Shown here: positions 297 through 18,370 of the stretch, in pieces
Numbering within the stretch: position 1 is the stretch's first letter
Layout: every line of letters begins with the position of its first letter
IMG/VR virus record: IMGVR_UViG_3300022690_000203
Coordinates: 1-21,552 of that record
Source of the DNA: a virus
Length of the DNA: 21,552 nucleotides
Direction: 5' to 3' (one strand)
Program-made: the position numbers and the translations under genes
The notes under the pieces: model-generated
What the model was told of the DNA's origin: nothing
What the model saw: the letters and a program-made list of their open reading frames with translations, nothing else
The model's database searches: none

Positions 297-593
297 TTAT
301 TCTACTAAAGTTGCTCCCAATTTTGCAAAAGCGGGGCCACCCTGTTCATCATTTTCATGTGTATGTTTTGGTATTGCTGCACCTGTATTTACGAATTGAC
401 CTATAAAAGGTCTTAAAAATGCAGCCCATTGTTCTTGTGTCCAATCAGACATATTGGTTTCTGCATCTAAAGCATTTAACATATCTTGCATAGAATTAGT
501 CAATAATTGTAAATCTTCTACCTGACTTTCTAAATTTCTAATCCTTTTAGACATCTCCTGTATTTTTGCTCGTTCTTCTCTAGTTAATGCCAT
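297..593 (-). CDS. Small tail-tip or fibre-associated protein with coiled coil and HTH-x-GGP motif
   Basis: 98 residues behind a strong AAGGAGG six or seven bases before the ATG. Residues 5-45 form a heptad-rich charged helix (KIQEMSKRIRNLESQVEDLQ), a likely trimeric or dimeric coiled coil. Residues 50-70 contain the aromatic stretch WTQEQWAAFLRPF. The C-terminus has KHTHENDEQGGPAF; short His-x-His, Gly-Gly motifs of this kind occur in phage fibre and baseplate proteins, where closely spaced histidines can bind a metal ion. The gene follows the giant hub gene by 12 bases, so a role at the tail tip is inferred from context. It could also be a small assembly factor. No catalytic motif is visible. 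Confidence 0.7.
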   Translation of the reverse strand: MALTREERAKIQEMSKRIRNLESQVEDLQLLTNSMQDMLNALDAETNMSDWTQEQWAAFLRPFIGQFVNTGAAIPKHTHENDEQGGPAFAKLGATLVE

Positions 594-605
594 ATATTCC
601 TCCTT

Positions 606-3600
606 TTATTTTAAGAATTCTGAAGTTACTTCCAATGTAGTTGTGTTCGCATCAAAATCATAACGAATACCAACAACTTTAATATTTATAGTATCAAAAG
701 AACCTTGTTGAGTATTTATTAGATTAACAGTATTATCTAAATCCCAAACTAAATCAATTGTATCTAAAGTAATCGAACCATTTATTTTGATATCTTTAAA
801 CTTTTGTAAAGAATCAGTAGCATACTGAATCATTTCAGCCGTATCATCTCTAAAATTATCGGGGTCTTCATCAAATTTAAATTCTGTTCTAACAATTCTA
901 AGAACTTTATCAGTAACTGCACTTCCAGAAACTGTAACTTCTGCTCTTAAAGGTTCAGTTTCTATTAAAGCATCCACCCTAACATCTGCACATTTTTTCT
1001 TAGGTACTTCTCTCCAAAAATAACTAGGAGCTATAGGATTTGATGTATCCAAACCTGGCTGTGCAATAATAAGTCCACTAGTATTAAAACTTGTTCCAGT
1101 AGGCCAAAAGCTATACATTTCTCTAGAAAATCTTACTGTATTAAGTGGGCCGAGTGTTCCTTGAATTTCATCTGCCTCTACAGTTTCTACAACTGGACTA
1201 AAACCTACTAATTTTTGTGATACAGGAAAAGACCCCGCTAATGGTAAAAGATTATTAAATCCACCTAATGCTGGAGTAGAATCATTAGGATTAGTTGTAT
1301 TTGTAGGTTGTCTAACTAAACCATCTTCTATTGGAATTGAAGAAAGTGTAGAATACCTTGCTCGTCTAGAATATTTAAGTAATTTATTATCTCTACAAAC
1401 ATCCCATTCCTGTAAAACAATATTAAAAGAAGAAAATCCTATAAAACCAGATGCAATAGGAATTAATGTAAATTTTTTAAGTCTAGCGTATGTTACAAAA
1501 GTTTCTATAATCTTTACAACTTTTTTATTAGTATTTATTGTAAATATTTTATATTTAATACCTGAAGCTCTATCACTTTCAGCAATTAAAGCCTCTTCTG
1601 ATTTAGGAGGAGCACCACAAGATGCGTTTAAAGTTACTCTTTCTCTTTTTCTAGCTCCCTCTATAACGGCTTTTTTATATCTTCTAATACCATCAAATTG
1701 TAAATTAGAACCCATTACATTAAATTGAGGACTTAGAGAACTAACAGTGGTTCCAAAAATTCCAAATTTAGCTTCTTCTGGATTATTAACTGTAGAATCT
1801 ATAGAAAATAATGTACCATTTGGTTGTATAAACCATCCAAATTTAGTTCTTTCATATATTCTATCTAAAATTTGTGATACGGTTTGTGCTATATATCTAT
1901 CAGAGACATTCGCTCCTGTAGGAAGACTATCTATATTTTTTATAACATCAGGTGCGATATTAGCAATTGTGGTTACAACGGTGCTAATAGCGACATCATC
2001 AAATTCTATTTGTGCAGTATCTCCTAATTCTGGATCGTTTATAGTAGCATAGCATTCATTTAATTGGCCTCTTGGCCCGACACAGTTATACATTACACCT
2101 TCAGCACCTGCATCAATCATTCTCTCTATGATTTTTATTTTTCCTCTAAATACAGTAGTATTGGCACTTCCATGAACAACGGATATTTCATCTCCTACTG
2201 AAAAGGGTAGAGTATCATCAAAAAGTACAGGTTGAAATATTCTACAATTTCTGGCTGAATCGAAATCCCATTTAATGGTCTTAACTTGAATTTCTTTTAA
2301 ACTTTGTTTTAAAGTCGTACCTGGCCCTATAACGGCTGTATCATTCGTAAAAGTTTGAGAACCAAATACAAATACAAATTCTTTTGTTTTTCCAGAATTA
2401 TTTGTTATAGTATCAAAGGGTTTTATTTTAATAATAGTAGTACCTTCTGCAAATGGCCCTAAATTTAGAGTTGTTCCAGAAGTAAAAGAATCTGATTGAG
2501 TAGGCTCACTTCCATCAGTAGTAAAATGATATTGAATTGGCCCTGGTTCTGCAGGAGCAGCTGTCCATTCGAAAAAGGGCGTATCATCTGCAGTTTGATA
2601 TATTCCATTTACAAATTGAATTACTTTGGCTGGACTATCAAAAGCAAATAATTCCCCCATTTCTGGAGAATCTTCTGCAACAAAAATATCAAAAGTAGAA
2701 ATTATTGTAACCGATCCATCGGATAAAGTTGCTTCTACTTTAAAAGTATGTTGTCCAGATTCTAATGGACTAGTTACAAATTTATTAACTTTAACTTTAG
2801 TATCTCTAATATCAGTAACAGTTGTATTTGCAATTAATGTAGTTCCAGCTGGAACTAGGACTGTTGCTAAATCTATACCATCTTGAAGACTTTCGGGTAC
2901 AACAGGAGAACCACTTTCAACTCCTTTTATAAAATTTAAACTTTCATTTTGAGAACTTATATAAATTAAATCTATTCTGTCTTGTGCTCCACCATCATCT
3001 AATGTTATAGCCTGTGTTGCGAATTCTTTTAAATCAGAATTGTAATAGAAAAACCCATCACTTGCTTCTACCGTCATTTCAGGTGTAGGCGTAGCTTTTG
3101 AAACGACTATATCGTTTCTAACTATATTTGGAGTAATTATATTAAAACTACCGTCGGGATCATCATCTATCTCAAAATTATAATCTTCGTAAGGAACATC
3201 GGATATTGGAACACTCCATTGAAAAAATGGAGTATCGTCAGTTTGAAATACACCTTCAGATATAGGAGTAGTTGCCGTTTCATCTTCAAATGCTTCTATT
3301 GTTACAGGTGTGGGTGCAACAGTAGTAACAATGGCTTCAATTAAATCTAAACCATTTGTAATATTACCTAATACATCTTGAAATCTAACAAATACTGTTT
3401 TAGTCCCATCTCCAGAACTTAAAGTTACAAATTTAGTTTCATTAAAATTTTCAAAAGATGAAAATTCTGTATCATCCTCATTTCTAAACTGCATCCTTAC
3501 AGCACCAAAAACGTCTAATTCTAAAGTTCCTGAATTAGTTGTAAGAAATCTACCTTCTTGAAAACTTATACTATTAACAACAACTTGACTAGTAAATATT

Positions 3601-5915
3601 GTATGAAATACTCTAATATCAGTAGACATATCATCTAACGAAGCATTTACTGTTCTAATATCTGTATCTATATCTTCTAAAACTTCGGTAACAGCAATAA
3701 TTCTAATATCTGTATCAATATCATCCAAAATTTCTGTAACAACCCTAATATCTGTATCTATATCATTAAGAGATTCATTTGTAATAACTCTAATATCGGT
3801 ATCTATATCTGATAAACTTTCTCCTAATGTTCTAATATCAGTATCTACATCATCTAAGACTTCTGTATGTTTTATTCTAATATCGGTATCGATATCACAA
3901 AGAGATTCTACTGTAGCTATAGTTAATAAATTATTAGATTCAGATTCAAATGATAACTTTATTTCATCAGCAGTTAAAACTCCATCAAATACCCTTGTCT
4001 CGTCTTCTAATCCATCATGTGAATCTAAAACTATAGAATCTCCCATATGAAAATCTGACGGACTAGTATAATCTATATTTCCACTTGTGGCTCCTCCAAT
4101 AGTACCTAATTCTTCTGCACCATTTATATAAATTCTTGGTGTTACACCATCCCAAGTTCCAACTATATGAGTTTTTGTTCCTGATAAAACAGTTATCGAT
4201 TCTCTTCCAATAGCCGCAACAGGTGATGTAAATATGAAAAAATTTGCTTTATCTGTATCTAAAATTTCTAAACCATATGAAGGTGCAAGTGCGGTTCTCA
4301 ACTTAGCAAGAACATTCTTTTTAGCTACTTGATCAGTATCTACAGTAATCCAAGTACTTATAGAAATATTTGCAGGTTCCATAGAAGTACTTTGAGGTAC
4401 TTTTATCTTATCATCAACACCATCGAAATCTTGACCTTTAAATATTTGACCATTTATCTGTGTAGGTACATCAGCACCAATACCTGCTCCACCTTGACCA
4501 TCATTATTATTAGAAGTAGAATCTAAATATTCCCCTACCGAACCATTTCCAATTTCTTTTAAATGATGCACAGATTTATAATCCGATCTCCATACACTAG
4601 TTGCATCTTCTCCATCAACAGCAGATGGATTTCCGAAATACATATAAATATCTTTATCATTTCCAGATAAAATAGATGGAATTTTTACCCAATAATATGC
4701 TTCTTCTCCTATCGAATCATGATTTTCTCTTTCAAATTTTAATAAAGTTTGACCATCATTATCAGTAAAACAAATATCAGTACCATTGGAATCAGCTAAT
4801 AAAAAATCAAAATTTGTTGCATCTAATTTAACTAATATAGGAACATCTACTAAATTATTTGTTAATGATAAACTTGCAGAATTTAAAGTAATTTTTTGTC
4901 TAAATTTAAATCCCTGTTTTGTTGATGCAGGTAATATCTGTTCTCCTGCAAAAGTTAATAAAGTATCAAATCCAGAATTTTTTGAAGCTTTTCTCCAAGA
5001 AGCGGTCTTGATACATGTACTTAATCTAACTTCTGAAATATCACCATTAAAAAATTTTGTATTATTATTTTCTGTTCCTATATCAAATCCCGCACCTGGC
5101 CCTGGGCCACCAGAAATAGTTTCTTTTAAAACATCATCCACATATATTCTAGTATCTGTTCCATCATAAGCCACATCAACAACGTGTAATGCTCCATCAT
5201 CTATAAATGCATTTGCAAAACCTACCCCTTGAAATATACCACTCCAAGCCATTCTAAAATTACCAGCACCATCGTCTAATTCTATTTTTAAATCAAAAGG
5301 ATTACGCCATTTACTAATTAAATTATGAGCTGCAGGAACTGATCCATCCCATTTAAACCATACTGTCCATGTATGTGTTCCCGATATATTAACAGAAGCG
5401 TCTGTTGGTACATTTATTGTACTCGTAGTTCCATCAAAACTTTGTCCTTTTCCATGAGAAGTATTAACTTCTGATGGATTATTAGCAGAAACTTTAGTTC
5501 CATCATTATTATTAGAAGTAGAGTCTTCAATAGTAGAAGTAGTCAAATCATCCATATGATGAACTGATTTAAAAGTAGAATCCCATGTATTTTCTGGATC
5601 AGAAAAATCTATTGCAGATGAGTTTCCATAATAAATAAAAATATCTGTATCTACCGTAGAGGAAATAGAAGGTATCTTAACAAAATATTCTGCAATTTGT
5701 CCCGAATCATTATGAAATACACGTTCAAATGTAAGTATAGTTGTACCATCTGCAGATGTAAAACGTATATCCGTTCCATCGGGTTCGGCTTTAGTAAAAT
5801 CAAAATTACCAACTGCTAAAGCTACCCTAACAGGAAAATCCACTAACGTTGTATCTATCTTAGTATTATCTATAGTTAATTTTTTTCTAAAATCGTATCC
5901 TGCTAAAAATCCCAT
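606..5915 (-). CDS. Giant tail-tip protein: two DUF2341-LamG lectin units, DIDTDIR repeats, Ig-like region and hub-like C-terminus
   Basis: 1769 residues. In order: a DUF2341-like domain (about 5-115, with DFPVRVALAVGNFDFTKAEP), a LamG/concanavalin-like domain (about 115-325), a second DUF2341-like domain (337-445) and a second LamG (450-660), seven LxDIDTDIR repeats (about 670-770), an Ig-like segment (770-870), two related Ig-like pieces marked QTDDTPFFQW (near 890) and QTADDTPFFEW (near 1110) around a fibre-type insert with ATVLVPAGTT, and a C-terminal region (about 1170-1769). That region resembles tail hub proteins: GDEISVVHG, FRGKI, then QILDRIYERTKFGWFIQPNG. The position after tape measure and Dit-like genes supports a hub or tail-tip role, with LamG domains binding host glycans. 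The ATG overlaps the upstream TAA as TAATG, so translation is probably coupled. Domain names come from pattern recognition, not a profile search; the hub call is the least certain. Confidence 0.8.
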   Translation of the reverse strand: MGFLAGYDFRKKLTIDNTKIDTTLVDFPVRVALAVGNFDFTKAEPDGTDIRFTSADGTTILTFERVFHNDSGQIAEYFVKIPSISSTVDTDIFIYYGNSSAIDFSDPENTWDSTFKSVHHMDDLTTSTIEDSTSNNNDGTKVSANNPSEVNTSHGKGQSFDGTTSTINVPTDASVNISGTHTWTVWFKWDGSVPAAHNLISKWRNPFDLKIELDDGAGNFRMAWSGIFQGVGFANAFIDDGALHVVDVAYDGTDTRIYVDDVLKETISGGPGPGAGFDIGTENNNTKFFNGDISEVRLSTCIKTASWRKASKNSGFDTLLTFAGEQILPASTKQGFKFRQKITLNSASLSLTNNLVDVPILVKLDATNFDFLLADSNGTDICFTDNDGQTLLKFERENHDSIGEEAYYWVKIPSILSGNDKDIYMYFGNPSAVDGEDATSVWRSDYKSVHHLKEIGNGSVGEYLDSTSNNNDGQGGAGIGADVPTQINGQIFKGQDFDGVDDKIKVPQSTSMEPANISISTWITVDTDQVAKKNVLAKLRTALAPSYGLEILDTDKANFFIFTSPVAAIGRESITVLSGTKTHIVGTWDGVTPRIYINGAEELGTIGGATSGNIDYTSPSDFHMGDSIVLDSHDGLEDETRVFDGVLTADEIKLSFESESNNLLTIATVESLCDIDTDIRIKHTEVLDDVDTDIRTLGESLSDIDTDIRVITNESLNDIDTDIRVVTEILDDIDTDIRIIAVTEVLEDIDTDIRTVNASLDDMSTDIRVFHTIFTSQVVVNSISFQEGRFLTTNSGTLELDVFGAVRMQFRNEDDTEFSSFENFNETKFVTLSSGDGTKTVFVRFQDVLGNITNGLDLIEAIVTTVAPTPVTIEAFEDETATTPISEGVFQTDDTPFFQWSVPISDVPYEDYNFEIDDDPDGSFNIITPNIVRNDIVVSKATPTPEMTVEASDGFFYYNSDLKEFATQAITLDDGGAQDRIDLIYISSQNESLNFIKGVESGSPVVPESLQDGIDLATVLVPAGTTLIANTTVTDIRDTKVKVNKFVTSPLESGQHTFKVEATLSDGSVTIISTFDIFVAEDSPEMGELFAFDSPAKVIQFVNGIYQTADDTPFFEWTAAPAEPGPIQYHFTTDGSEPTQSDSFTSGTTLNLGPFAEGTTIIKIKPFDTITNNSGKTKEFVFVFGSQTFTNDTAVIGPGTTLKQSLKEIQVKTIKWDFDSARNCRIFQPVLFDDTLPFSVGDEISVVHGSANTTVFRGKIKIIERMIDAGAEGVMYNCVGPRGQLNECYATINDPELGDTAQIEFDDVAISTVVTTIANIAPDVIKNIDSLPTGANVSDRYIAQTVSQILDRIYERTKFGWFIQPNGTLFSIDSTVNNPEEAKFGIFGTTVSSLSPQFNVMGSNLQFDGIRRYKKAVIEGARKRERVTLNASCGAPPKSEEALIAESDRASGIKYKIFTINTNKKVVKIIETFVTYARLKKFTLIPIASGFIGFSSFNIVLQEWDVCRDNKLLKYSRRARYSTLSSIPIEDGLVRQPTNTTNPNDSTPALGGFNNLLPLAGSFPVSQKLVGFSPVVETVEADEIQGTLGPLNTVRFSREMYSFWPTGTSFNTSGLIIAQPGLDTSNPIAPSYFWREVPKKKCADVRVDALIETEPLRAEVTVSGSAVTDKVLRIVRTEFKFDEDPDNFRDDTAEMIQYATDSLQKFKDIKINGSITLDTIDLVWDLDNTVNLINTQQGSFDTINIKVVGIRYDFDANTTTLEVTSEFLK
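3600..3905 (-). repeat. Seven tandem LxDIDTDIR coding repeats
   Basis: Within the giant tail-tip gene a unit of about 41-49 bases recurs seven times. On the plus strand each copy carries a variant of ctaatatctgtatctatatc. Each encodes a nine-residue core such as LDDIDTDIR, followed by a five- to seven-residue variable linker often ending in E. The first copy reads CDIDTDIR and the last LDDMSTDIR, so the array degenerates at its edges. The linkers vary in length without breaking frame. It joins the lectin half to the Ig-like and hub half and may be a flexible or Ca-binding linker; the Asp spacing suggests metal binding, but this is inference. Confidence 0.9.
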
Positions 5916-6319
5916 TATTTAATTCCCTTTTTCCAATTACTAACTGGTCTACCTTTAAATTCCTTACCAAATTCAAATTCTCTTTTTGTTATATCACCTT
6001 TTATATACTTATCTGTTCCTGCTACACCATTTAAATTAATTCTATAAGAAGTTACCCTACCATTTCTAAGTCCCATAATATAAATATTATGTAATTTCAT
6101 TTTAAGGTCGGTTCCTTTTGGCCCATGTACGTTTTGAGTAGCTTCTATAAAATGACTATAAGCTTCAAAATGAGATAGAACTAATGTGGTATTTTTTGAC
6201 AAAAAATAATCCAGACGAAGAATTGCCTTGTCTGGAATAGGGTTCCACTTACTATTTAAAATACTATCCCCACCTTCATAGGTAGAGTTATCTGTAAAAG
6301 TAATCTTAAATAAAGGCAT
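5915..6319 (-). CDS. Hypothetical tail-tip protein (134 aa)
   Basis: Starts at ATG 6319 with AAAGGTGA about nine bases upstream, and its TAA overlaps the ATG of the giant hub gene by one base (TAATG). The protein starts MPLFKITFTDNSTYEGGDS, reads as mixed beta and alpha, and has the lysine- and arginine-rich end VSNWKKGIK. The stretch NIYIMGLRNGRVTSYRINLN suggests beta hairpins. No signal peptide, membrane segment or catalytic motif is seen, and I do not recognise the family. The tight coupling to the hub gene suggests a baseplate partner or hub-assembly factor made in similar amounts, which is inference from gene order only. Confidence 0.75.
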   Translation of the reverse strand: MPLFKITFTDNSTYEGGDSILNSKWNPIPDKAILRLDYFLSKNTTLVLSHFEAYSHFIEATQNVHGPKGTDLKMKLHNIYIMGLRNGRVTSYRINLNGVAGTDKYIKGDITKREFEFGKEFKGRPVSNWKKGIK

Positions 6320-6373: not shown

Positions 6374-7012
6374 TTATGAAAAAGTAAATCTGATTGTCAA
6401 AACGGGGGCCTCCACGAATGGGGTTGCAAAATTACCTGGTACAATAATCTGAATATTTATATAAATTTCAGTTGCTCCACCAAGCGCACCTCCACCCGCA
6501 TTTAAAAGTAGAATATTTGGTGCTAATGCTCCAGCAATTGTAGTCCCTGTCCAAGCCGCTCCAGGTGAACCTGTTGTAGTTAAAATAGCCTTTACCATAC
6601 TATCTGCAGGAGTTCCCGCACCTAAAACATTTGCATTAGTAGAACTATGGGAATTATCATCAAATCCTTCAAAAGAAGGTTCAGAAGCAGTTGCTCCGTC
6701 AAAAGAAAAATTAATTACAAACTGTGTATCCGTACTTCCAGCAAGATCAATCTCTTTTAATTCTTGTCCCGCATCTGAAAAATCTAATAAAAATAATTTA
6801 TCTATTTCTACATCAGTGGGTTGTATAATTGTTGCAGCAGCATTTAGTTCAGACCCTGTAGGGGTATCATCTCCGTCTGTTACGCCTGTTCCACCCGCAC
6901 TAAAAATAAATTTATCGTTTGCTAAATCTACTTGTTCGTAATTTCCAGGTTGTGCAATTCTGTCACTATCGACAGCAGTTGTATTAACATGTACTGTTAA
7001 AGCGGTTGCCAT
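6374..7012 (-). CDS. Probable structural protein, acidic and Gly/Ala/Thr-rich (212 aa)
   Basis: A perfect GGAGGTG at 7020-7026 lies seven bases before the ATG, among the strongest ribosome sites in the window, which suggests high expression. The protein starts MATALTVHVNTTAVDSDRI, is acidic with few lysines, and has low-complexity stretches such as NAGGGALGGATEIYINIQII. It ends in beta-strand-like LTIRFTFS. These features fit a secreted-style beta-rich virion protein (tail-tip, decoration or tube-associated) rather than an enzyme. It sits downstream of the HNH insertion and upstream of the hub gene, so tail tip is the favoured site. No family recognised with certainty. Confidence 0.7.
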   Translation of the reverse strand: MATALTVHVNTTAVDSDRIAQPGNYEQVDLANDKFIFSAGGTGVTDGDDTPTGSELNAAATIIQPTDVEIDKLFLLDFSDAGQELKEIDLAGSTDTQFVINFSFDGATASEPSFEGFDDNSHSSTNANVLGAGTPADSMVKAILTTTGSPGAAWTGTTIAGALAPNILLLNAGGGALGGATEIYINIQIIVPGNFATPFVEAPVLTIRFTFS

Positions 7013-7034: not shown

Positions 7035-7778
7035 TTATCTTGTTATTGGTATATTTAAATGACAATCTTTACATAAAGTTATGCCATTATCTATATTCCA
7101 AAATTGTTTATATTTTGTAGCCAATCTTACTAAAGTTTCTTTATCCTCTATAGGGCTAAATTGATCATACTCTTTTAAGAATTCAGATAAAATAATTGCA
7201 AATGCTATTTTATGATGTGCATTTAAATTTCCTCCTTTATTATCTCCACATTCTTGGCAAGTATAATTATCCCTATTGAAAACAAGGTTTCTCCAAACTT
7301 TATAAATTTCAGAACCTCTAATTATATTATATAAAGGAGTTCGACCATCTATATAATTTGGATGATTTTTACCTTTAAATTTGCATTTAACACATCTTTT
7401 ATTATGGTAATTACTTAATTGCCTATTACAATCTAAACAATATGGTTTTCCATTTTTCCAATTTGGGTGATTTTTACCTTTAGTACTAGTGTAATAGCAG
7501 GATCGACATCTTTTATGTGTATAACTATTTAATTGTTTTTTACAATCTATGCATTTAGGTTTACCTTTTTTATATTTATCACTATTTTTACTAGAAAGAA
7601 GATTAATTTTTTGAGCTTCTTTAAATGACCGTATAGGAATATTATATTTATTTAATCTTACGTCTATTGTTGATTCGCTACAATTTAATAAAACTGAAAT
7701 TTTCTTTTTTGATAATTTTTTAGTAATATATAAATTAAATAATTTATCTTTAAAAATTTTTATACTTTCTTTTTTCAT
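7035..7778 (-). CDS. Free-standing HNH homing endonuclease with HTH and zinc-ribbon repeats
   Basis: 247 residues. Residues 5-50 form a helix-turn-helix of the kind found at the front of phage HNH enzymes (LSKKKISVLLNCSESTIDVR, ending NIPIRS). Two zinc-ribbon repeats follow: CxxC pairs at 76/79 with 91/94, and at 114/117 with 129/132, each followed by the NUMOD3-like string KGKNHPNW or KGKNHPNY. The HNH nuclease core is at 168-240: YTCQECG, the His pair in NAHHK (188-189), and NGITLCKDCH, giving four Cys and the expected Asn/His. Such genes cut intron- or gene-free alleles and spread by repair; they have no structural role. It is lysine-rich and has no clear Shine-Dalgarno (only AAAAG), unlike its structural neighbours, consistent with insertion between the Dit-like gene and the 212-residue gene. 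All key residues seem intact. Confidence 0.93.
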   Translation of the reverse strand: MKKESIKIFKDKLFNLYITKKLSKKKISVLLNCSESTIDVRLNKYNIPIRSFKEAQKINLLSSKNSDKYKKGKPKCIDCKKQLNSYTHKRCRSCYYTSTKGKNHPNWKNGKPYCLDCNRQLSNYHNKRCVKCKFKGKNHPNYIDGRTPLYNIIRGSEIYKVWRNLVFNRDNYTCQECGDNKGGNLNAHHKIAFAIILSEFLKEYDQFSPIEDKETLVRLATKYKQFWNIDNGITLCKDCHLNIPITR

Positions 7779-7786
7779 ACTTTTAA

Positions 7787-8134
7787 TTACCCGCTACGAA
7801 TGAATGTTATTGTAAATCTTGCCCATCTGTTATGTTCACTACTTTGACTAATATTATCCATTACACAATTTGAATAAGTTTCAGTATTTATAATTAGATC
7901 AGCTACAGCAGAACTTAAATTGGCTGCTAACTGATCAAAAAATTGTTCTATTTCTGATCTTGACTTTTTAATAATCCAACCATGAACACTCATAGTTTTC
8001 ACTCCTCCACCTCGTCTACGGACTATTGAACCATCTGCTCTAGGTATAATATGAATCTCTACTTGATTTTTAGTATCAACCTGTAACCAAGCAAAATCCC
8101 CTAAAGCTACACCATTAAAAGTTGCATTTGACAT
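7787..8134 (-). CDS. Probable distal tail (Dit-like) or tail-tip adaptor protein
   Basis: 115 residues; ATG overlaps the stop of the tape measure gene as TAATG. The position directly after the tape measure is where distal tail or minor tail-tip proteins are encoded in siphoviruses. The protein has VEIHIIPRADGSIVRRRGGG, followed by VKTMSVHGWIIKKSRSEIEQ, a helix (FFDQLAANL), and a final strand ARFTITFIRSG. A charged loop followed by beta strands and one helix fits the small beta-sandwich hub ring proteins that connect tube to tail tip. No carbohydrate-binding insert is present; that job lies in the giant protein downstream. The family call is by context plus shape and is moderate. Confidence 0.65.
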   Translation of the reverse strand: MSNATFNGVALGDFAWLQVDTKNQVEIHIIPRADGSIVRRRGGGVKTMSVHGWIIKKSRSEIEQFFDQLAANLSSAVADLIINTETYSNCVMDNISQSSEHNRWARFTITFIRSG

Positions 8135-10383
8135 TATTCCATATCCACCCTTGGAGCAGTTTTATCTACTGAATCTGTAAAAACTTTACTAACTTGACCT
8201 TTTATAGTATCCAATTCTTTTCTAAAAATTAAAATTTGTCCATTTAAACCATCTAACTTATTGCCTGTATCTCGCATAATAACTGTTGCATCTTTGAAAA
8301 CTCCCTCAATATTTGTAAATAATTCTGTGGTTGTATCCGAAGCCTTTTTACCTGCTGAAATTAATTCATCCGTACTTAAAGCCGCTTGCATTATTTCTAA
8401 TATTCCACCTGTAGCAGCAGTTGGGACTAAGCCCCCTTGTTCTTTATCTTTCTGTCTTTCTGCTATTCGTCTTTTACGTTCAGCATCTATTTCGTCTGAT
8501 GCTCCTTGTCTTATTCCTACTTCTTCTTTAGCAGTAGCAACTCTTTTTTGAAAACTCTTATCAAGAAAAAGTGTTGGATTAAATGCAGCTTCAATACCTA
8601 AACCTACTAACTTACTTAATGATATAATCACTCTAAAATCTGACATTATTTTAGCTAACGCTAATTCAACAAAACCTATTTCATCTAAAAATGTTCCAAA
8701 TTTCCATCCTATAATGGCTGCACCTATTAAACCTACTAATACAAGAATAGGTATAAGAATAGCTTTCCATCCTGTTAAAACAACTCCCATAAAGGTAACA
8801 TTTGTTATAATGCCACCTACAATAGCACCAATTGATATAAATAAAATAATTATATTTAAAAGTCCACCTACTAAAGCTAAAATACCTACCGATACTAAAA
8901 TAATAGCTCCTAAATTTTCTTTAATAATATTAGGGAGAGCATCCCATAGTGACTTAAAAAATTTAGTTACATCCGTAATAAATTTAATTATATCCCCAAT
9001 TAATACTAAAGCATTCATAAAAGTTTTAATATTACTTGTATCTGTAAAAAACCCTATGAAATCCGAAACTCTACGTTTAAGTCCATCAAAAAATGTAAGA
9101 ACATCTGCAGGAGTTAATTCAAGAAGAAATTTTTTAAATTGTTCTGCTAAAGATTTAATTATATCTGTTAAAGGGGAAAGTGCGCTCATGATTCCCATAA
9201 CAATTGATTTAAATACTGCTGATCTACCTAATGCTTCTGTAATTTCTTTAATATAATTTCTTATACCAAAAATCGTATCTGCTAAAGGTTTATTAAATCT
9301 TTGAGAAAAAGCTAATCCCAAATTAACAATTGATGCACCCAAGTCTCTAACCCTACCAGTTACAGTAGTTCTAAATGCTTGAGCCATCCTATTAGCTGCA
9401 CCTTCAGAATTATTTAATTTACTTTCTAATTGACCAAGAGCAGAAGAACCTGTTTGTAATAATGCAGCCATACCTGGCCCCGCTATTCTACCAAAAACAG
9501 TTTGAACTTGAGCAGCGGTTAAATTCGCACTAGTTAATTTTCTAATTATTGTTGTAAAAGATTCTAGTTTACCTCTTGATGTTACAAAAGTTAAACCTAA
9601 TTCATCAAATATTTTCTTTGCCCTTCCTGTAGGTGCTAATAAAATTGATAATGCCCTTCTTAAAGTTGTACCTGCTCTACTTCCTCTAATACCAGCATTT
9701 GATAAAACACCTATAGCTGCAGCAGTTTCTTGTATAGATAATCCAGCAGAATTTGCTACAGGAGCAACGAAACTTAAGGCAGAACCCAATAATTGTACAT
9801 CTGTATTAGCTTGAGATGAAGCTAAAGCTAGAATATCGGAAACTTTTCCAGCTTGATCTGCTGCTAAATTAAATCCAGCTAAAGATGCAATTGTAATATC
9901 TGTTGATTCTTTTAATCCTATATTTCCTGCAATAGCTAAATTTAATGTAGGCCCAATAGCGGTTAGTGTTTGTTTTACAGAAAATCCAGCCCTTGCCAAA
10001 CTTTGCATACCTTCAGCTGCATCAGTAGCAGAAAACAAAGTTTCACTACCTAATCTTATAGCCTCATTAGTTAATGCTCTAAAATCTTCTTTAGTAGCAC
10101 CTGAACTTTCTTGCATAATTACAAATGCTCTAGTAATATTATCCTGAAAATCAGCACCACTTTTAGCAGCTAATGCAAAAGTTCCAATCATTGCTGCTGC
10201 ACTAACTGTCAATGCTCTAAGACCAATAGCAGCAATATTCTGAAATGCTGTAGTAACCCCTTGACTTAAACCTGTAGCTAATAAAGACCAATCCCTGATT
10301 AAAGATGAGGCTTGAGCTAAGTTGGCCCTCAATCTATTAGTTGAGGCTGAAATTTCAATTTTTAATTCACCAATAGTTGGCAT
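8134..10383 (-). CDS. Tail tape measure protein (TP901-like core)
   Basis: 749 residues. It spans the tail lumen during assembly, sets tail length and helps DNA delivery at infection. The conserved core is at roughly residues 60-270: GADFQDNITRAFVIMQESSG, then SLARAGFSVKQTL, ALASSQANTDVQLLGSALSF, and the GIRGSRAGTTLRRALSILL stretch that is typical of TP901 or PhageMin_Tail proteins. Residues about 484-565 carry three or four hydrophobic membrane-like segments (for example AIILVSVGILALVGGLLNII). The C-terminus is helical and charged. At about 1.5 angstrom per residue the tail would be roughly 110 nm, an inference from known scaling. It follows the two chaperone genes and its stop overlaps the next start, as in a normal siphovirus tail operon. 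Confidence 0.95.
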   Translation of the reverse strand: MPTIGELKIEISASTNRLRANLAQASSLIRDWSLLATGLSQGVTTAFQNIAAIGLRALTVSAAAMIGTFALAAKSGADFQDNITRAFVIMQESSGATKEDFRALTNEAIRLGSETLFSATDAAEGMQSLARAGFSVKQTLTAIGPTLNLAIAGNIGLKESTDITIASLAGFNLAADQAGKVSDILALASSQANTDVQLLGSALSFVAPVANSAGLSIQETAAAIGVLSNAGIRGSRAGTTLRRALSILLAPTGRAKKIFDELGLTFVTSRGKLESFTTIIRKLTSANLTAAQVQTVFGRIAGPGMAALLQTGSSALGQLESKLNNSEGAANRMAQAFRTTVTGRVRDLGASIVNLGLAFSQRFNKPLADTIFGIRNYIKEITEALGRSAVFKSIVMGIMSALSPLTDIIKSLAEQFKKFLLELTPADVLTFFDGLKRRVSDFIGFFTDTSNIKTFMNALVLIGDIIKFITDVTKFFKSLWDALPNIIKENLGAIILVSVGILALVGGLLNIIILFISIGAIVGGIITNVTFMGVVLTGWKAILIPILVLVGLIGAAIIGWKFGTFLDEIGFVELALAKIMSDFRVIISLSKLVGLGIEAAFNPTLFLDKSFQKRVATAKEEVGIRQGASDEIDAERKRRIAERQKDKEQGGLVPTAATGGILEIMQAALSTDELISAGKKASDTTTELFTNIEGVFKDATVIMRDTGNKLDGLNGQILIFRKELDTIKGQVSKVFTDSVDKTAPRVDME

Positions 10384-10393
10384 TTACTACTCC

Positions 10394-10669
10394 TTATATT
10401 ACTATCTCTTTTGTTCCATCTTCTCTTACTGTTGTTTTACCTAATAATTCAAAATGTGAAAGGGGTAATTCCTGTTCAGAATTTTCCTCATTATTTTGAT
10501 TATTTTTTATAGACTCCTCTTGTCTAGCATATCTCGCCTTTATAGACTTTATCAAAATTATTAATTGAGGAAGGGTTAGAGTTTTTATATAGTCTATAGT
10601 CCAACCATATTCGGCTGCAAGAACGTCTACAATCATTGCCCAATCTATATTAAGTTTACTTTTTTCCAT
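10394..10669 (-). CDS. Tail assembly chaperone, second (gpT-like) member
   Basis: 91 residues. It holds WAMIVDVLAAEYGWTIDYIK followed by LTLPQLIILIKSIKARYARQ, the compact helical pattern with a Tyr-Gly-Trp turn common in proteins encoded just before tape measures. The rest is an Asn/Glu-rich linker. Such proteins coat and fold the tape measure during tail assembly and are absent from the virion. It is in the same reading frame as the upstream 106-residue gene, separated by one TAA and three further codons, and its ATG has no Shine-Dalgarno. Initiation by coupling or occasional stop readthrough is therefore plausible, unlike the -1 frameshift used by lambda. Confidence 0.75.
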   Translation of the reverse strand: MEKSKLNIDWAMIVDVLAAEYGWTIDYIKTLTLPQLIILIKSIKARYARQEESIKNNQNNEENSEQELPLSHFELLGKTTVREDGTKEIVI

Positions 10670-10678
10670 AATATTAAA

Positions 10679-10999
10679 TTATTGTTTAGCTTTAATCATA
10701 TTTTGAAGTGCTTCTATATCTTGTCCCATTATTGCTGCAATAATTTTCTGAATATCAAGCATATCTACTAAATCTCCGACATCTTTACCTTTTGCTTGAT
10801 CTCTAAGTGCTACTTTAACAAGTTTTTTTATGTCAGAGAATAATTCTATATCAACTTTTTGACTTTTATTTTCCAATTTTTCAACAATAGGTATAATATC
10901 AATCAATTCATTGATAGTTAAAGGTAAAACACTATATACTTTATTATCTCTTAAAGTTATTTTTATTTCTTTTTTTGATATAATATCTTCATTAGTCAT
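10679..10999 (-). CDS. Tail assembly chaperone, first (gpG-like) member
   Basis: 106 residues with AAAGGAGA eight bases before the ATG. The sequence EIKITLRDNKVYSVLPLTIN followed by ELIDIIPIVEKLE resembles the short N-terminal strand and helix of phage tail assembly chaperones, and the remainder is helical (DIKKLVKVALRDQ, QKIIAAIMGQDIEALQNM). It lies between the tail tube gene and the tape measure gene, the invariant place of this family. I found no slippery heptamer near its end, and the next gene is in the same frame, so a -1 frameshift fusion is not supported. It should bind the hydrophobic tape measure during assembly. Confidence 0.75.
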   Translation of the reverse strand: MTNEDIISKKEIKITLRDNKVYSVLPLTINELIDIIPIVEKLENKSQKVDIELFSDIKKLVKVALRDQAKGKDVGDLVDMLDIQKIIAAIMGQDIEALQNMIKAKQ

Positions 11000-11063
11000 T
11001 TTAATATCTCCTTTATATTATTGTTTAGAGGCATTCGCCCATCTAGTTAATAAAATATCTTTA

Positions 11064-11429
11064 TTATACTTCAATATCTTTCTTTCGCCATTCTAATCTA
11101 GTTCCAACGAAAGTATTCTGTGTAGAAGTAACCTCTGCTGTAACTAATTTCATATTGGTAAAAGTAACAACAAGACCACCACTATTTGCACCTGCTTGCA
11201 ATTCTAACGTAAACGTTGAATCGAAATCAGGATTGTTAGCATCGAAATCCGCTGTTTCAGCTGTGACGATTAAAGATTGATCTCCAGGTTCTATCTCTAA
11301 AGGAAATCTAAAATCTCCACCTCTAAATTCTTGAGGATTTCCATCATGTCTAACAGTGATGTTTGTTGCAACTCCAATAGGGCTACCATCCGCAATTATC
11401 TTTCCTACAGAAAATTTTCTAATACCCAT
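11064..11429 (-). CDS. Major tail tube protein (probable)
   Basis: 121 residues behind a perfect AGGAGGTG. It polymerises into the tail tube if the assignment is right. The start MGIRKFSVGKIIADGSPIGV, then ATNITVRHDGNPQEFRGGD, and alternating strands to the end match the small beta-barrel tube proteins of the XkdM/gp19 type. The segment FRFPLEIEPGDQSLIVTAET fits the tube loop region. It lies just upstream of the chaperones and tape measure, which is the standard place, and its strong ribosome site fits a highly expressed subunit. It is at the short end for siphovirus tube proteins, and no Ig-like extension is present. The neighbouring 87-residue gene is a weaker alternative. Confidence 0.75.
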   Translation of the reverse strand: MGIRKFSVGKIIADGSPIGVATNITVRHDGNPQEFRGGDFRFPLEIEPGDQSLIVTAETADFDANNPDFDSTFTLELQAGANSGGLVVTFTNMKLVTAEVTSTQNTFVGTRLEWRKKDIEV

Positions 11430-11447
11430 TTTATTACACCTCCTTAA
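11430..11447 (-). promoter_or_regulatory. Strong ribosome binding leader, copy 1
   Basis: The minus strand reads TTAAGGAGGTGTAATAAA directly before the ATG of the tail tube gene. The same 18 bases precede the 87-residue gene at 11727-11744. The core AGGAGGTG matches the 16S anti-Shine-Dalgarno over eight bases with good spacing, which marks both products as abundant. Confidence 0.85.
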
Positions 11448-11462
11448 ATTTTATTATTATAT

Positions 11463-11726
11463 TTATGTTCCTACTGCTGTAACGAGTAAATGATCCGCTG
11501 ATACACCAACATCATTTATAGTAATAACATTTGTTGCAATATCAACAGTTACATCAGTAGCATCTGCTAAATCTATAACTTTTACACTATCAATAGTTGT
11601 TAAAGCATCTACTGTAATTGTATCAGCATCATCTACTTGAAGTACTTCTAAAATAGAATACTTCTTTAATAGAGTAACATCCCTTGCCTGACTTTGTGAT
11701 TTTACTTCTCCTACTCTTTCGGCCAT
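11463..11726 (-). CDS. Small structural protein, tube-associated or decoration (87 aa)
   Basis: Begins MAERVGEVKSQSQARDVTLL and continues as strongly alternating acidic beta strands (DADTITVDALTTIDSVKVID, then DVTVDIATNVITIND). Lys and Arg are almost confined to the N-terminal third. It shares an identical 18-base leader with the tail tube gene, so it is probably made in similar high amounts. It lies between the tail terminator and the tail tube genes. A decoration, tube-lining or capping protein is possible, but I do not recognise a family. No membrane segment or enzyme motif. Confidence 0.7.
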   Translation of the reverse strand: MAERVGEVKSQSQARDVTLLKKYSILEVLQVDDADTITVDALTTIDSVKVIDLADATDVTVDIATNVITINDVGVSADHLLVTAVGT

Positions 11727-11744
11727 TTTATTACACCTCCTTAA
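11727..11744 (-). promoter_or_regulatory. Strong ribosome binding leader, copy 2
   Basis: Identical over 18 bases to the leader at 11430-11447 and placed directly before the ATG of the 87-residue gene. The exact match extends upstream of the Shine-Dalgarno core as far as TTAA, so it is more than a shared core and may reflect duplication of the leader or selection for matched output. Confidence 0.85.
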
Positions 11745-11750
11745 TTATTT

Positions 11751-12158
11751 TTAATCGCTGTAACCTTGCATTACAACATTAAAAGTTAATACTTTATGAA
11801 AAGTTTGAGTTTCGTCTTCAAATAAATCCGTTCCTGTACTTTTCCATACTTGAAAAATACATTTATCAACTTGTAAAAAAGATTTTCTATCTATTCTTAT
11901 TAAAATTCTTCTTGCTATTTTATTTCCTTCTGTAACTTTTTCATCCCCTCTTGTCCAAATATGTAATTGTAAATCAGGAAAATAATCATTTGTTACAGAA
12001 TCAGTAGGGCCATCAGAATCCATTATAGTAATTTGTGGATAATCTACTATTGTATTTGCAGCAGGTTTAAATGCCCAAAATATTCTAGAATCTACAAAAG
12101 CAGTAATAGTAGGATCAGCTAAAAGATCATCTCTGATTGTTTTAATTAAATCTAACAT
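11751..12158 (-). CDS. Tail terminator or completion protein (DUF3168-like)
   Basis: 135 residues. It caps the top of the growing tail tube and joins it to the head stopper. It shows the family pattern: helix at the start (LDLIKTIRDDLLADPTITAF), then a VDSRIFWAF strand, a central YPQITIMDSDGPTDS, LQLHIWTRGD, a helix (EGNKIARRILIRID), and closing strands such as TFHKVLTFNVVMQ. The length is normal for gpU/DUF3168 proteins. The start is fixed by TAATG overlap with the gp10-like gene. The gene order gp10-like, terminator, tube is the standard siphovirus order. Confidence 0.85.
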   Translation of the reverse strand: MLDLIKTIRDDLLADPTITAFVDSRIFWAFKPAANTIVDYPQITIMDSDGPTDSVTNDYFPDLQLHIWTRGDEKVTEGNKIARRILIRIDRKSFLQVDKCIFQVWKSTGTDLFEDETQTFHKVLTFNVVMQGYSD

Positions 12159-12565
12159 TAAATTAATCCCTCTTTAGTTTGTTTTCTTTTACTTTCTGCT
12201 TCAAATGTGGCTTCTATTAATCCTCTTCCTAAAGTTTGCATAACAAATTCTGTATTTTGTTTAAAAGATGGTCGCATAAAAGGATGAGCAGAATGATTAA
12301 CTGTTCCAAATTCTTGATGTACAGAATAAGGAGCCTTTGATATAACATTTCCTATAATTAAAAATCTTTTCTTTCTTACACTTGGTATAATATTATCCCT
12401 AAGAAATCCAGTTTTAAAAGGTGCAAATGTTTTTGCATCAAAGGCTATTTTAGCAACAGACTTACCCATACCTATTCCCAATTTTCTTTCAGCAATATCT
12501 GTGAATTTAGAAAGATTTTCAGCTATTTCTTGCATACCTCTAATTCTTACAAATATTTCAGCCAT
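12158..12565 (-). CDS. HK97 gp10-like head-tail protein
   Basis: 135 residues from the ATG at 12565 (MAEIFVRIRGMQEIAENL). The frame opens earlier with an ATG at 12595, but only the second ATG has a plausible ribosome site, AAAAAAGG about ten bases upstream, and the ten extra residues (MKKQKKGINI) look like part of an upstream relic. Family features: N-terminal strand and amphipathic helix, APFKTGFLRDNI (the conserved TG.L segment), then SKAPYSVHQEFGTVNHSAHP and FMRPSFKQN. In HK97-type phages this protein acts at the head-tail junction. The stop overlaps the next start as TAATG. Confidence 0.9.
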   Translation of the reverse strand: MAEIFVRIRGMQEIAENLSKFTDIAERKLGIGMGKSVAKIAFDAKTFAPFKTGFLRDNIIPSVRKKRFLIIGNVISKAPYSVHQEFGTVNHSAHPFMRPSFKQNTEFVMQTLGRGLIEATFEAESKRKQTKEGLI

Positions 12566-12712
12566 TATATTAATACCTTTTTTCTGTTTTTTCATTTGAG
12601 CAATGGATGTATTTTTTCTAGTTTCTCAAAGTTTTTTAGCTACTTCAATTCCGTATATTTCTTCGTATGTTTTACCTTTTGTATTTCTCATAAGTACTTT
12701 ATTACCAATAGT
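12566..12712 (-). pseudogene. Relic of a homing-endonuclease-type (NUMOD-like) segment
   Basis: In the gap between stopper and gp10-like genes the minus strand encodes MRNTKGKTYEEIYGIEVAKK (ATG at 12691) then Leu, TGA at 12626-12628, and continues in frame as ETRKNTSIAQMKKQKKGIN into the gp10-like start. The string GKTYEEIYG followed by an Ala-Lys helix is the hallmark of NUMOD-type DNA-binding modules around phage HNH/GIY-YIG enzymes. There is no nuclease core and the frame is broken by one TGA where Arg or Lys is usual. It is also in frame with the upstream stopper gene. I read it as a scar of a lost homing gene; a functional 21-residue peptide is less likely because the ribosome site is weak. 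Confidence 0.55.
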
Positions 12713-13156
12713 TTACAAATTATCGATGCGTCTACAGAAGACTTCCCGATGGTGCATTTTACTTTGTCCAAATAATTCATCTACTAATATAGCCTGATAT
12801 TCTCTTGATCCAATAAATATTGAATCATTTTCTCTAATATCTATTTCTGGACAAAAGAAAGCTCTAAATGTTGCAAATACTTCTCCACCTTGAATTCTAA
12901 TTTTAAGTCCCATTTCTCCTCTTTGTCTAATGGGATCAATTCTAACTGGAATATCCGTTCCTATTACTTGTGCATTAGGATAAGTTAAAATAACTTCTCC
13001 AAATTCATTAGTCTTTTTTACACCTTCTGTAGCATCATAGGGTCTTTTAATGATTACAGTTTGAGGTAGCAATGCTAAAAATACAGAATCACAAGGTACA
13101 TCGATTATAGGATTTACTGTAAATTGATTTATTGTTATTTCAGTTGTATTTGCCAT
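12713..13156 (-). CDS. Head closure or stopper protein
   Basis: 147 residues. It closes the connector after DNA packaging and receives the tail. Beta-rich throughout: FTVNPIIDVPCDSVFLALLP, a charged loop, VILTYPNAQVIGTDIPVRID, then GGEVFATFRAFFCPEID and NDSIFIGSREYQAILVDELF. The ending, GQSKMHHREVFCRRI, matches the G.S..HH.EV...R close seen in stopper and head-tail joining families. It lies between connector and gp10-like genes as expected, and its ATG overlaps the upstream TAA (TAATG), so it depends on translation of the 105-residue gene. Confidence 0.8.
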   Translation of the reverse strand: MANTTEITINQFTVNPIIDVPCDSVFLALLPQTVIIKRPYDATEGVKKTNEFGEVILTYPNAQVIGTDIPVRIDPIRQRGEMGLKIRIQGGEVFATFRAFFCPEIDIRENDSIFIGSREYQAILVDELFGQSKMHHREVFCRRIDNL

Positions 13157-13667: not shown

Positions 13668-15170
13668 TTAACTAGTAAAATCAAAATTATACTTAAGATT
13701 AAAATTCCTAATTCCTTCATTACTCTCCCCACTAGGTACTTTTATTTTAATTACAATTATCTTTTCTTCAGCGGGGTTAATATCTCCAAGATTTATAGCA
13801 TTAACTAATGAATCCCCTATACCTGTTTTAAAATTGACATCAAAGGTTCCATTATTATTTGTATCCAATAATAAACCATCTCCAGCATTATCATCAGCCC
13901 ATTGTAAAATTTCTGATAATCCATCTAAAAATATTTTTAAATTTTGTATAGGATTAATTCCATCATGTCTAATAAAAAATATCTCTTCCAAAGTAGTTAT
14001 ATTATTAGTAACTTCTCCATGATTAATACCTATTTGATTATTAATTAATCTATCTTTTATTTCTAAATCACTAGAAGATCGAGATATAATAAATTTAGGG
14101 AAAATTACTACTAATGTAGTATCATTTGCTTCATTAGAAAAATTTCCTACTCCTTCTATATTTATAGCTGAAACTCTATAATTAAATTGTGTATTACCAT
14201 CTAAACCAATATCAGAAAATGTTATATTTGTATTTCCTGTATCAGAAATAATTATTGAAAATCCTCCTCCTATAGGGGATTCTCTTTCTATTTGATATCC
14301 AGTAATAGAACTTCCCCCATCATCAATAGGTGCAACCCACGATAAATCTATTTGACTAGATGAAATTGTTGTTGCTATTAAACTAGTAGGAGGATCAGGA
14401 GGAGTATCTGGACTATATTCACTAATCGGAACTGTAATTATTCCAAGATTATTTCCAGAATTATCCATCCAGTTCCCACCTGGATCAGATGCTGCAACTG
14501 TCACGTTAAAATCATTTGATTTTTGAATTCTAAGTTCATCTAAATTACCATTTAATGTGGTATTAGGATTTAAAGGACTATCTCCATTTTCACCAATATA
14601 GAGCGGGCCTGTAATATTTAATATTTGATTACTAGATATATAATCGGTTTGTTGTCCATCTATATATAATGCATAATCTGCATTAGGAGAACTACCTATT
14701 TTAATAAGAGCCAAATGATGATAATTTGTATCAGAAATAAGTCCACCCTTTAAAGATAAGGTAATCGCACTATTTACAACAATAAAACGAAATTCACCAT
14801 CAGAACTATCTGATAATAATATCCATCTAAAAGAACCGCCAGCCAAGGGTTCAGTGGCATGAGTACAGTAAAATTCACCATTATGAGAAGTTGAAGCATG
14901 TTTTACCCAAAAATCTATAAGATAATCTTCTGTGGTAACACCTACAACATCCCAATCTGTAGAATCCGCTATTTTTAAAGAATCGCTATTTCCATCAAGA
15001 AATAATCCTGCGGAACCAAATTTTACATTTGTTGGTGTTGTATCTAATTGTGCAGTTCCTTTAAATATTATAGGACTATGTGCCGAAGGAGATGAATCTA
15101 TAGTAGATGTTTGTCCATTAATTCCATTTAAATGCAACATTAATTTTGTGTTAGAATTTATACCTGGCAT
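13668..15170 (-). CDS. LamG plus fibronectin III adhesin or fibre protein
   Basis: 500 residues with AAGGA nine bases before the ATG. Residues about 5-235 form a LamG/concanavalin-like lectin domain (KLMLHLNGINGQTSTIDSSP, FGSAGLFLDG, ALYIDGQQTDYI, LNGNLDELRI). Residues about 253-352 are a fibronectin type III domain (PPDPPTSLIATTISSSQIDL, SWVAPIDDGG, GYQIERES, YRVSAINIEGVG). The last 145 residues are a beta-rich domain of unknown type with a DTNNNGTFDV calcium-loop-like segment. It likely binds glycans on the virion surface. It sits among connector and stopper genes, so a neck or capsid fibre is more likely than a tail fibre. Its LamG is closely related to that of the 530-residue gene. Confidence 0.8.
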   Translation of the reverse strand: MPGINSNTKLMLHLNGINGQTSTIDSSPSAHSPIIFKGTAQLDTTPTNVKFGSAGLFLDGNSDSLKIADSTDWDVVGVTTEDYLIDFWVKHASTSHNGEFYCTHATEPLAGGSFRWILLSDSSDGEFRFIVVNSAITLSLKGGLISDTNYHHLALIKIGSSPNADYALYIDGQQTDYISSNQILNITGPLYIGENGDSPLNPNTTLNGNLDELRIQKSNDFNVTVAASDPGGNWMDNSGNNLGIITVPISEYSPDTPPDPPTSLIATTISSSQIDLSWVAPIDDGGSSITGYQIERESPIGGGFSIIISDTGNTNITFSDIGLDGNTQFNYRVSAINIEGVGNFSNEANDTTLVVIFPKFIISRSSSDLEIKDRLINNQIGINHGEVTNNITTLEEIFFIRHDGINPIQNLKIFLDGLSEILQWADDNAGDGLLLDTNNNGTFDVNFKTGIGDSLVNAINLGDINPAEEKIIVIKIKVPSGESNEGIRNFNLKYNFDFTS

Positions 15171-16777: not shown

Positions 16778-18370
16778 TTATGCCCAGGATAAACCTGTTC
16801 CATGAAGTTTTAAACCTTTAAGATTAGCTGTAACGATCTTATATCTCATAGCTGTTCCAACTGGTTGAGAACTTATATCAATTGAAGCTGCAAGAACTCT
16901 TCTTCCTGTTTCATATTCACCTTCATTTACTAAGGTAACTTCTGAATAGGTTACACCATCATCTCTACTAATAAATGCTTTAAGATCAGTATTTAGAACA
17001 ATTATATCAATATCTTGTTCAAAAATAACTATTCTAGCATCATCTGCTTGTGTCTGTGCAGTAACTGCTTCAGAAATTAAAGTAGTATTAACTGATCCAC
17101 CCGCAAATTCAGCAGTAGGTACTGTAATTGTATCTGTTAATCCTACATTTGGAGCAGCAGCAAAAGTATTAGCAGATTCTAAAAGTACTTCGTCTAAATG
17201 TCCTTCAAGATTAGTAAAACCTGTACCATCTTCAGCTAAAAATAAATCACCTGCATATGTATCTGTAAATGTGTTGGATTCATATGCTACTTGAACTCCA
17301 TCTACATAAATAGCATACTCACTTCCAACTCTTGTCACAGCAACATGATGCTGATTGGTATCTGTTATTTCACCACCAGATATATCCTGTTTAATAACAC
17401 CACCTGATATAACTAGCAATCTAAAACCTGTACCATCAATATGATTTAAAATCCATCTATTAGCACCATCTTCTCTTTGAGTTAAAATATATTCTGTTCC
17501 AGTATGATTTGCAAATTTTACAAATAAACTAATTGTATAATTTGTATTACTAGCTCCAACTAAATCAAAATCTGCGCTATCGGGAATACTTGCACTATCT
17601 CCTGTTCCATCCAATTCTAAAGAAGCACTTCCAAATTGTTTAATTGATGTATCAAGTTTCGCTTGACCAATCAATGTAACAGTATGTCCTGCTGGAGAAG
17701 AGTCTACAGTGGTAGTTTGCCCATCTAAACCATTAAAATGTAAAAGTAACTTTATATTATTATTTTCTGTTTCATATAAACTTTCAACAGAATTAAATAA
17801 TTCATCAATAGAAGCAGCATTATCTATTCCACTTTCATCTTCGTATTCATCTACAAAACCATCAACCATATTAGATAAAGTTAATGAATGTAATGTAGCT
17901 ATTCTAAAAGCATTTAGAACAATATTATCTGAATTCCTATCAATAGCTGCTTGAATATTAGCTGATATTTCTCCAGCACCAGTAAACTTAATAAAGTTTA
18001 ATGATGTGATATCTAATGAAATAGGATTGTCCGTAATTAACAACCATCCTGTATCCTTATTAGTTACACCCTCTTCAACAAAAGTAAACATACCTGCTGT
18101 TACTTCTTTATCTCTATTAGCATCCTGTGATCTTTGTAATGTAGCGGATGTACCAACTACTTTTCTAACATTATAAATACCATTTCTTTTAGAATTTGGA
18201 ACTTCTATACCATCTTTAGAAGCCGTATCTTTTACAAGTACCCTATCTCCTTGTTCTAAAGTAATACCATCTATAGAACTAGTATCTACATCTTTTAAGT
18301 TAGAGACACTATTAATCGTAGCGACTCTTACGGATGCTTTTGCATCCAATTTTTTATTTCCTTCTGCCAT
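16778..18370 (-). CDS. LamG-containing fibre protein in its own transcription unit
   Basis: 530 residues. Residues about 10-135 match a widespread phage fibre N-terminal domain: VRVATINSVSNL, IDGITLEQGDRVLVKDTASK, RNGIYNVRKV, EVTAGMFTFVEEGVTNKDTG. Residues 205-430 are LamG (KLLLHFNGLDGQTTTVDSSP, FGSASLELDG, YAIYVDGVQVAYES, GHLDEVLLES). Residues 435-530 form a beta-rich C-terminal domain (VFEQDIDIIVLNTDLKAFIS, SWA end). A perfect AGGAGGTG (18376-18383), a plausible promoter upstream and a long hairpin downstream imply high, independent expression. It probably binds glycans from the capsid or a fibre. It is upstream of the connector, not in the tail-tip block, so a head-fibre or decoration role is favoured. 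Confidence 0.82.
   Translation of the reverse strand: MAEGNKKLDAKASVRVATINSVSNLKDVDTSSIDGITLEQGDRVLVKDTASKDGIEVPNSKRNGIYNVRKVVGTSATLQRSQDANRDKEVTAGMFTFVEEGVTNKDTGWLLITDNPISLDITSLNFIKFTGAGEISANIQAAIDRNSDNIVLNAFRIATLHSLTLSNMVDGFVDEYEDESGIDNAASIDELFNSVESLYETENNNIKLLLHFNGLDGQTTTVDSSPAGHTVTLIGQAKLDTSIKQFGSASLELDGTGDSASIPDSADFDLVGASNTNYTISLFVKFANHTGTEYILTQREDGANRWILNHIDGTGFRLLVISGGVIKQDISGGEITDTNQHHVAVTRVGSEYAIYVDGVQVAYESNTFTDTYAGDLFLAEDGTGFTNLEGHLDEVLLESANTFAAAPNVGLTDTITVPTAEFAGGSVNTTLISEAVTAQTQADDARIVIFEQDIDIIVLNTDLKAFISRDDGVTYSEVTLVNEGEYETGRRVLAASIDISSQPVGTAMRYKIVTANLKGLKLHGTGLSWA

Follow-up and report, generated by a model that had tools for sequence, protein, structure and literature searches.

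In several systems the tail hub and the domains that bind carbohydrates or receptors are part of one chain, as in the Tals of lactic-acid-bacteria phages, gpJ of lambda, gp44 of HFTV1 and gp21 of Stenotrophomonas phage AXL3 (PMC9437275, PMC10721106, PMC12494034, PMC7504290). In these proteins the binding domains are placed C-terminal to the hub or inserted in it, which is the usual order, in contrast to the protein analysed here, a chain of 1769 residues in which the putative hub comes last. The megatron of RcGTA (Rcc01698) has an adhesin-like region (residues 47-229) and a peripheral region (230-744) before its central hub-core domain (745-984) (PMC7296036). It resembles the present protein in carrying large peripheral domains N-terminal to the hub core, but no DUF2341-LamG has been reported in it, its hub domains are shared with g13, and it possesses a C-terminal fibre-binding domain.

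Lectin-first hubs in Methanoculleus virus Blf4 and its relatives

Among 50,697 phage records, the only ones matched by the 1769-residue protein were two of Methanoculleus virus Blf4/L4768. The gp33 protein of this virus (725 aa) begins with DUF2341-LamG and carries a Sipho_Gp37 hub at residues 369-704 (E 3e-68); the main text of the Blf4 paper names neither LamG nor gp33 (PMC8540584). As in our protein, DUF2341-LamG is N-terminal, the hub is C-terminal and the gene lies downstream of those for the tape measure and Dit; in contrast, gp33 has a single unit, with neither repeat nor Ig stalk, and its hub is of the Sipho_Gp37 type, to which the hub-like region studied here shows no detectable resemblance. 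Three IMG/VR contigs (L029, L030 and L031) encode the architecture of gp33, and a further scan for Blf4-like fusions returned only these three, already known. In the annotated Sipho_Gp37 phages examined the hub was first in the protein in seven out of seven.

Within this group of four viruses the DUF2341 domains are 82-93%, the hubs 84-94% and the Dit proteins about 80% identical, whereas the lectin (gp33 residues ~190-349) retains 20-28% identity in every pair. A lectin that alone is strongly diverged or replaced between conserved neighbours is the pattern expected of a part that determines receptor specificity. The lectin stretch of L031 no longer matches Laminin_G_3, and in L030 a second stretch downstream of the hub gene (4005-4274) shares 54% identity with the C-terminal part of the Blf4 Dit.

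Other arrangements were also found. Two contigs (L041 and L042) place 180-255 residues of repeats ahead of a Sipho_Gp37 hub; at ~10001-11391 the Sipho_Gp37 match extends beyond the end of the frame at 10708, and the hub gene seems to be interrupted or frame-shifted. Contig L009 encodes, directly after a tape measure and a Dit-sized gene, a 1061-aa chain with an N-terminal DUF2341-LamG (9890-13075), whose C-terminus has an unnamed PHROG as its sole match and would be a hub by position. At its C-terminal end this chain has a repeat of the SDHxDxxH type, rich in histidine and aspartate.

The window and its tail genes

The window, that is, the whole stretch of DNA analysed, is a virus record of 21,552 bases and probably a fragment; all its plausible genes lie on the minus strand. 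The tail genes around the giant chain are the following:

8134-10383, minus strand: tape measure protein, 749 aa (PF10145, E 1.8e-43)
7787-8134, minus strand: Dit-like (RIFT-related Sipho_tail) protein, 115 aa (PF05709, E 3.4e-4, just under the cut-off)
6374-7012, minus strand: tail-module protein, 212 aa, no Pfam or PHROG match
5915-6319, minus strand: unassigned tail-module protein, 134 aa, its stop overlapping the start of the 1769-aa chain
606-5915, minus strand: single 1769-aa chain with (DUF2341-LamG)x2, DIDTDIR repeats, Ig-like/DUF4815-like modules and a hub-like C-terminus
297-593, minus strand: 98-aa protein downstream of the putative hub chain, with a strong ribosome-binding site

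Following the tape measure, the Dit-like gene and two small genes, the 1769-aa chain occupies the position of a hub, and no other large chain lacking an assignment follows the tape measure within the window. A preliminary description of this DNA had reported one chain here; indeed, a single intact frame covers 606-5915, its ATG at 5915 overlapping the stop of the preceding gene (TAATG).

Several other genes of the window are worth recording. A free-standing HNH-type endonuclease-like gene (7035-7778, minus strand) lies between the tail genes, in the most AT-rich stretch (GC 0.25), and shares 34% identity with a stretch of contig L006. Two further lectin-type chains of 500 and 530 aa (13668-15170 and 16778-18370, both minus strand) have in common a LamG-like region of ~250 aa (39% identity), the former being located among head-tail connector genes and containing an fn3 domain as well. 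Together with the 1769-aa chain, the fragment encodes four LamG-like domains in three proteins. A 556-aa protein (18643-20313, minus strand) combines collagen-like repeats with a part resembling BclA_C, and it matches PHROGs of tail fibres. With regard to the host, DUF2341 was found in only two of 14 control genomes, both of methanogens, and the nearest isolate with DUF2341 infects a methanogen, which makes an archaeal host a fair guess; the similarity of the tape measure is broad and bacterial.

Domain organization of the 1769-residue chain

The features of the chain, from its N-terminus, are:

5526-5780, minus strand: DUF2341 domain 1, residues ~46-130 (PF10102, E 5e-13)
5016-5453, minus strand: Laminin_G_3 / ConA-like lectin domain 1, residues ~155-300 (PF13385; boundaries obtained by aligning the two units)
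4593-4787, minus strand: DUF2341 domain 2, residues 377-441 (PF10102, E 3.4e-15)
3957-4424, minus strand: Laminin_G_3 / ConA-like lectin domain 2, residues 498-653 (PF13385)
3591-3932, minus strand: seven repeats of 14-16 aa built around DIDTDIR, residues ~662-775 (positions 674, 689, 703, 718, 732, 748 and 762)
3081-3293, minus strand: first half of Ig-like copy 1, residues ~875-945 (duplicated within the chain as copy 2)
2736-3110, minus strand: module related to a protein of contig L008, residues ~936-1060, between the Ig-like copies
2355-2663, minus strand: Ig-like copy 2, residues ~1085-1187 (CHB_HEX_C_1; internal duplication)
1626-2333, minus strand: hub-like part 1, residues 1195-1430, aligning to YqbQ/GPD-type hubs
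996-1625, minus strand: ~210-aa stretch within the hub-like region, residues 1431-1640, without match
609-995, minus strand: hub-like part 2, residues 1641-1769, by eye like the C-termini of hubs

The two N-terminal DUF2341-LamG units of the preliminary description were confirmed, PF10102 being matched twice (E 1.4e-21; 51.0 and 43.9 bits against a curated cut-off of 23.4) and PF13385 over two stretches (E 2e-25; 90.1 bits against a cut-off of 27.6). The units share 37% identity over 281 aa (E 1e-48), which indicates an old duplication. They are followed by the DIDTDIR repeats, likely a spacer; short tandem repeats of differing kinds often come after viral DUF2341-LamG, as in L006, L011, L016, L017 and L018. 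The Ig-like pieces of the same description can be retained tentatively, on the basis of an internal duplication (~875-917 and 1091-1134; 34% over 44 aa, E 2e-5) and of a CHB_HEX_C_1 match at residues 1130-1174 (E 0.0013) just under the Pfam cut-off. The module between the two copies resembles a tail protein of 176 aa that L008 encodes separately (pairwise E 3e-4) and phrog_3398, a virion structural protein (E 9e-4).

Split versions of the same parts

The viral contig L008 (IMGVR_UViG_3300009503_000033) encodes a 970-residue protein in which DUF2341 and LamG each occur twice, and its gene is preceded by the tape-measure region and a pair of small genes; a 549-residue hub gene begins 2 bp past its stop, and the next-but-one gene specifies the 176-residue protein, which has a weak DUF4815 match. 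The window chain has counterparts of all three proteins. The hub of L008 is assigned from phrog_400, a tail protein (E 1.2e-6), and from PF24032 (E 3e-4, below the cut-off). The window chain and L008 share the order, two DUF2341 and two LamG ahead of a hub whose remote type they have in common, but L008 has two genes instead of one chain, and by eye its hub contains a ConA-like stretch. In L005, which shows similarity to the window in the tape measure and the head-tail adaptor, the hub matches PF24032 (YQBQ) over the cut-off and phrog_196, a baseplate hub (E 6e-9), and is separated from the DUF2341-LamG protein by two small genes. Accordingly, the same parts occur as distant genes, as direct neighbors and as a fusion.

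Since in L008 the parts are separate genes two bases apart, and the window is a metagenomic contig, the fused frame might be thought an error of assembly or sequencing that joined neighboring genes. We regard this as highly improbable: the lectins are set apart from the hub-like region by long linker domains (residues 660-1190), so that one frameshift or one faulty junction would not account for the chain, the base composition is even, and the isolate genome of Blf4 contains the same kind of fusion. The separate neighboring genes of L008 also indicate that its hub is able to work unfused, and the chain could be processed after translation into a lectin arm and a hub that are present apart in the virion, an outcome equivalent to that of the two-gene arrangement in L008. 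Nevertheless, neither a protease gene nor a cleavage site was seen, no internal start with a convincing Shine-Dalgarno sequence for a separate hub product was found within the 1769-aa frame, and the fused order is kept in the four viruses of the Blf4 group; processing is consequently considered quite unlikely, and a chain that remains fused is the reading we follow.

The C-terminal region as a putative tail hub

The preliminary description had called the C-terminus a tail hub. Profile searches of the chain, which it had proposed, gave DUF2341 and Laminin_G_3 over their cut-offs and no curated hub family over cut-off for the C-terminus (Pfam and PHROGs), PF24032 having no match in the window. 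Likewise, a PDB sequence search with the C-terminus gave no match, no close relative of the whole protein or of its C-terminus was confirmed among 2.9 million IMG/VR viral contigs and the GTDB genome contigs, and genome contigs scanned with two hubs of related type yielded no relative. Because these searches were silent, profiles were built from hubs found during the analysis, and the final one comprised four YqbQ/GPD-type hubs only, those of L005, Thermoanaerobacterium phage THSA-485A, Methanosarcinales virus vir515 and L008.

When aligned to this profile with hhalign, residues 1185-1440 scored 31.0 in a co-linear match of 117 columns (residues ~1236-1374). None of 500 shuffles (maximum 25.6) and no piece in a decoy set of 228 taken from other long viral proteins (maximum 21.7) scored as high. 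The L008 hub was included because, used as a presumed decoy, it had scored higher than the window protein; with the preceding three-hub profile the window protein scored 28.2, a value reached by none of 200 shuffles, and against the profile without itself the L008 hub scored 32.0, about equal to the window protein. In a single BLAST comparison, hub-like part 1 matched the L008 hub with an E of 0.008; BLAST of the hub-like region against Blf4 gp27 and against the L005 hub found nothing. The last 130 residues (1641-1769) alone gave no significant hub-profile score, and for residues 1431-1640 the L008 hub also has, by eye, extra sequence at the equivalent place. Residues 1185-1440 are thus co-linear with members or near-members of the YqbQ/XkdQ and P2 gpD-type hubs (PF24032, PF05954, phrog_196), but against the curated models of these families the window protein scores below detection. 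The Sipho_Gp37 family (PF14594) was rejected as hub type, with no Pfam match and an hhalign score of 18.6 that 24 of 200 shuffles matched, i.e. noise.

The hub-profile method misses most hubs yet is not easily fooled. In fact, T4 gp27, TP901-1 Tal and Dp-1 gp54 score at noise level against the YqbQ/GPD-type profile (13-17 for the first two), and as these are known hubs a low score is no evidence against a hub. AlphaFold models of residues 1126-1769 alone, without relatives (pLDDT 28.6), and of residues 1191-1430 with three sequences, including two distant relatives (pLDDT 34.3), were too poor for a four-sub-domain hub fold to be read, and a Foldseek search with the latter returned noise and no hub, the model being too poor to test the fold.

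The majority of the viral DUF2341-LamG proteins encountered are stand-alone chains that are not hubs, and this, together with the lack of a family match in the C-terminus, would agree with a large adhesin or side fibre, attached to the tail (or head), that bears lectins without a hub. In that case the true hub would be encoded beyond the left end, as the record, being a fragment, stops ~600 bp downstream of the giant chain and a further hub might lie outside. This explanation appears unlikely given a hub-profile score that exceeds those of all shuffles and decoys, the absence from the window of a second large chain without assignment downstream of the tape measure, and the arrangements of L008 and Blf4. 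Although no family model matches it, the profile score, the gene position and the split arrangement of L008 point to the C-terminus as a likely tail hub.

Proposed function

Judging from its sequence and context, the 1769-aa protein is probably a siphovirus-like baseplate or tail-tip hub with adhesion arms fused at its N-terminus. The C-terminal ~575 residues would form a gp27/Tal-like ring, presumably a trimer, stacked beneath the ring of the Dit-like protein, and the N-terminal ~1190 residues an arm, in which two DUF2341-LamG lectin units are held on a stalk of repeats and Ig-like pieces. A trimer would set six lectin domains around the tail tip, where they may bind glycans of the host surface, and such binding could be passed straight to the hub, opening the tail channel and being coupled in this way to DNA release. 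From the divergence of the lectin in the Blf4 group we infer glycan binding for the lectins of the window protein as well; trimer, arm geometry and the coupling to DNA release are likewise proposals.

The preliminary description had considered the reversed order unusual. The layout is uncommon but not unique, being found in gp33 of Blf4/L4768 and its three IMG/VR relatives and in the RcGTA megatron; it has precedent in an isolate, and the window chain differs in its larger size, its two lectin units and a hub type unlike that of Blf4. We hypothesize, tentatively and with somewhat less than even confidence, that DUF2341-LamG is an exchangeable glycan-reading cartridge which has been acquired N-terminally more than once by unrelated hub families, namely the Sipho_Gp37 type in Blf4, the YqbQ type in the window and perhaps a third type in L009, DUF2341 acting as the conserved adaptor and the lectin as the swapped specificity part.

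Host recognition by tailed viruses of archaea and of uncultured microbes is poorly known, and a lectin arm at the front of the hub would link the DNA gate directly to glycan binding. In the relatives of Blf4 one domain changes while its neighbors do not, which makes a determinant of host specificity testable in an isolated virus, and DUF2341, to which no function has been ascribed, can be tested as the adaptor that links the lectin to the tail tip.
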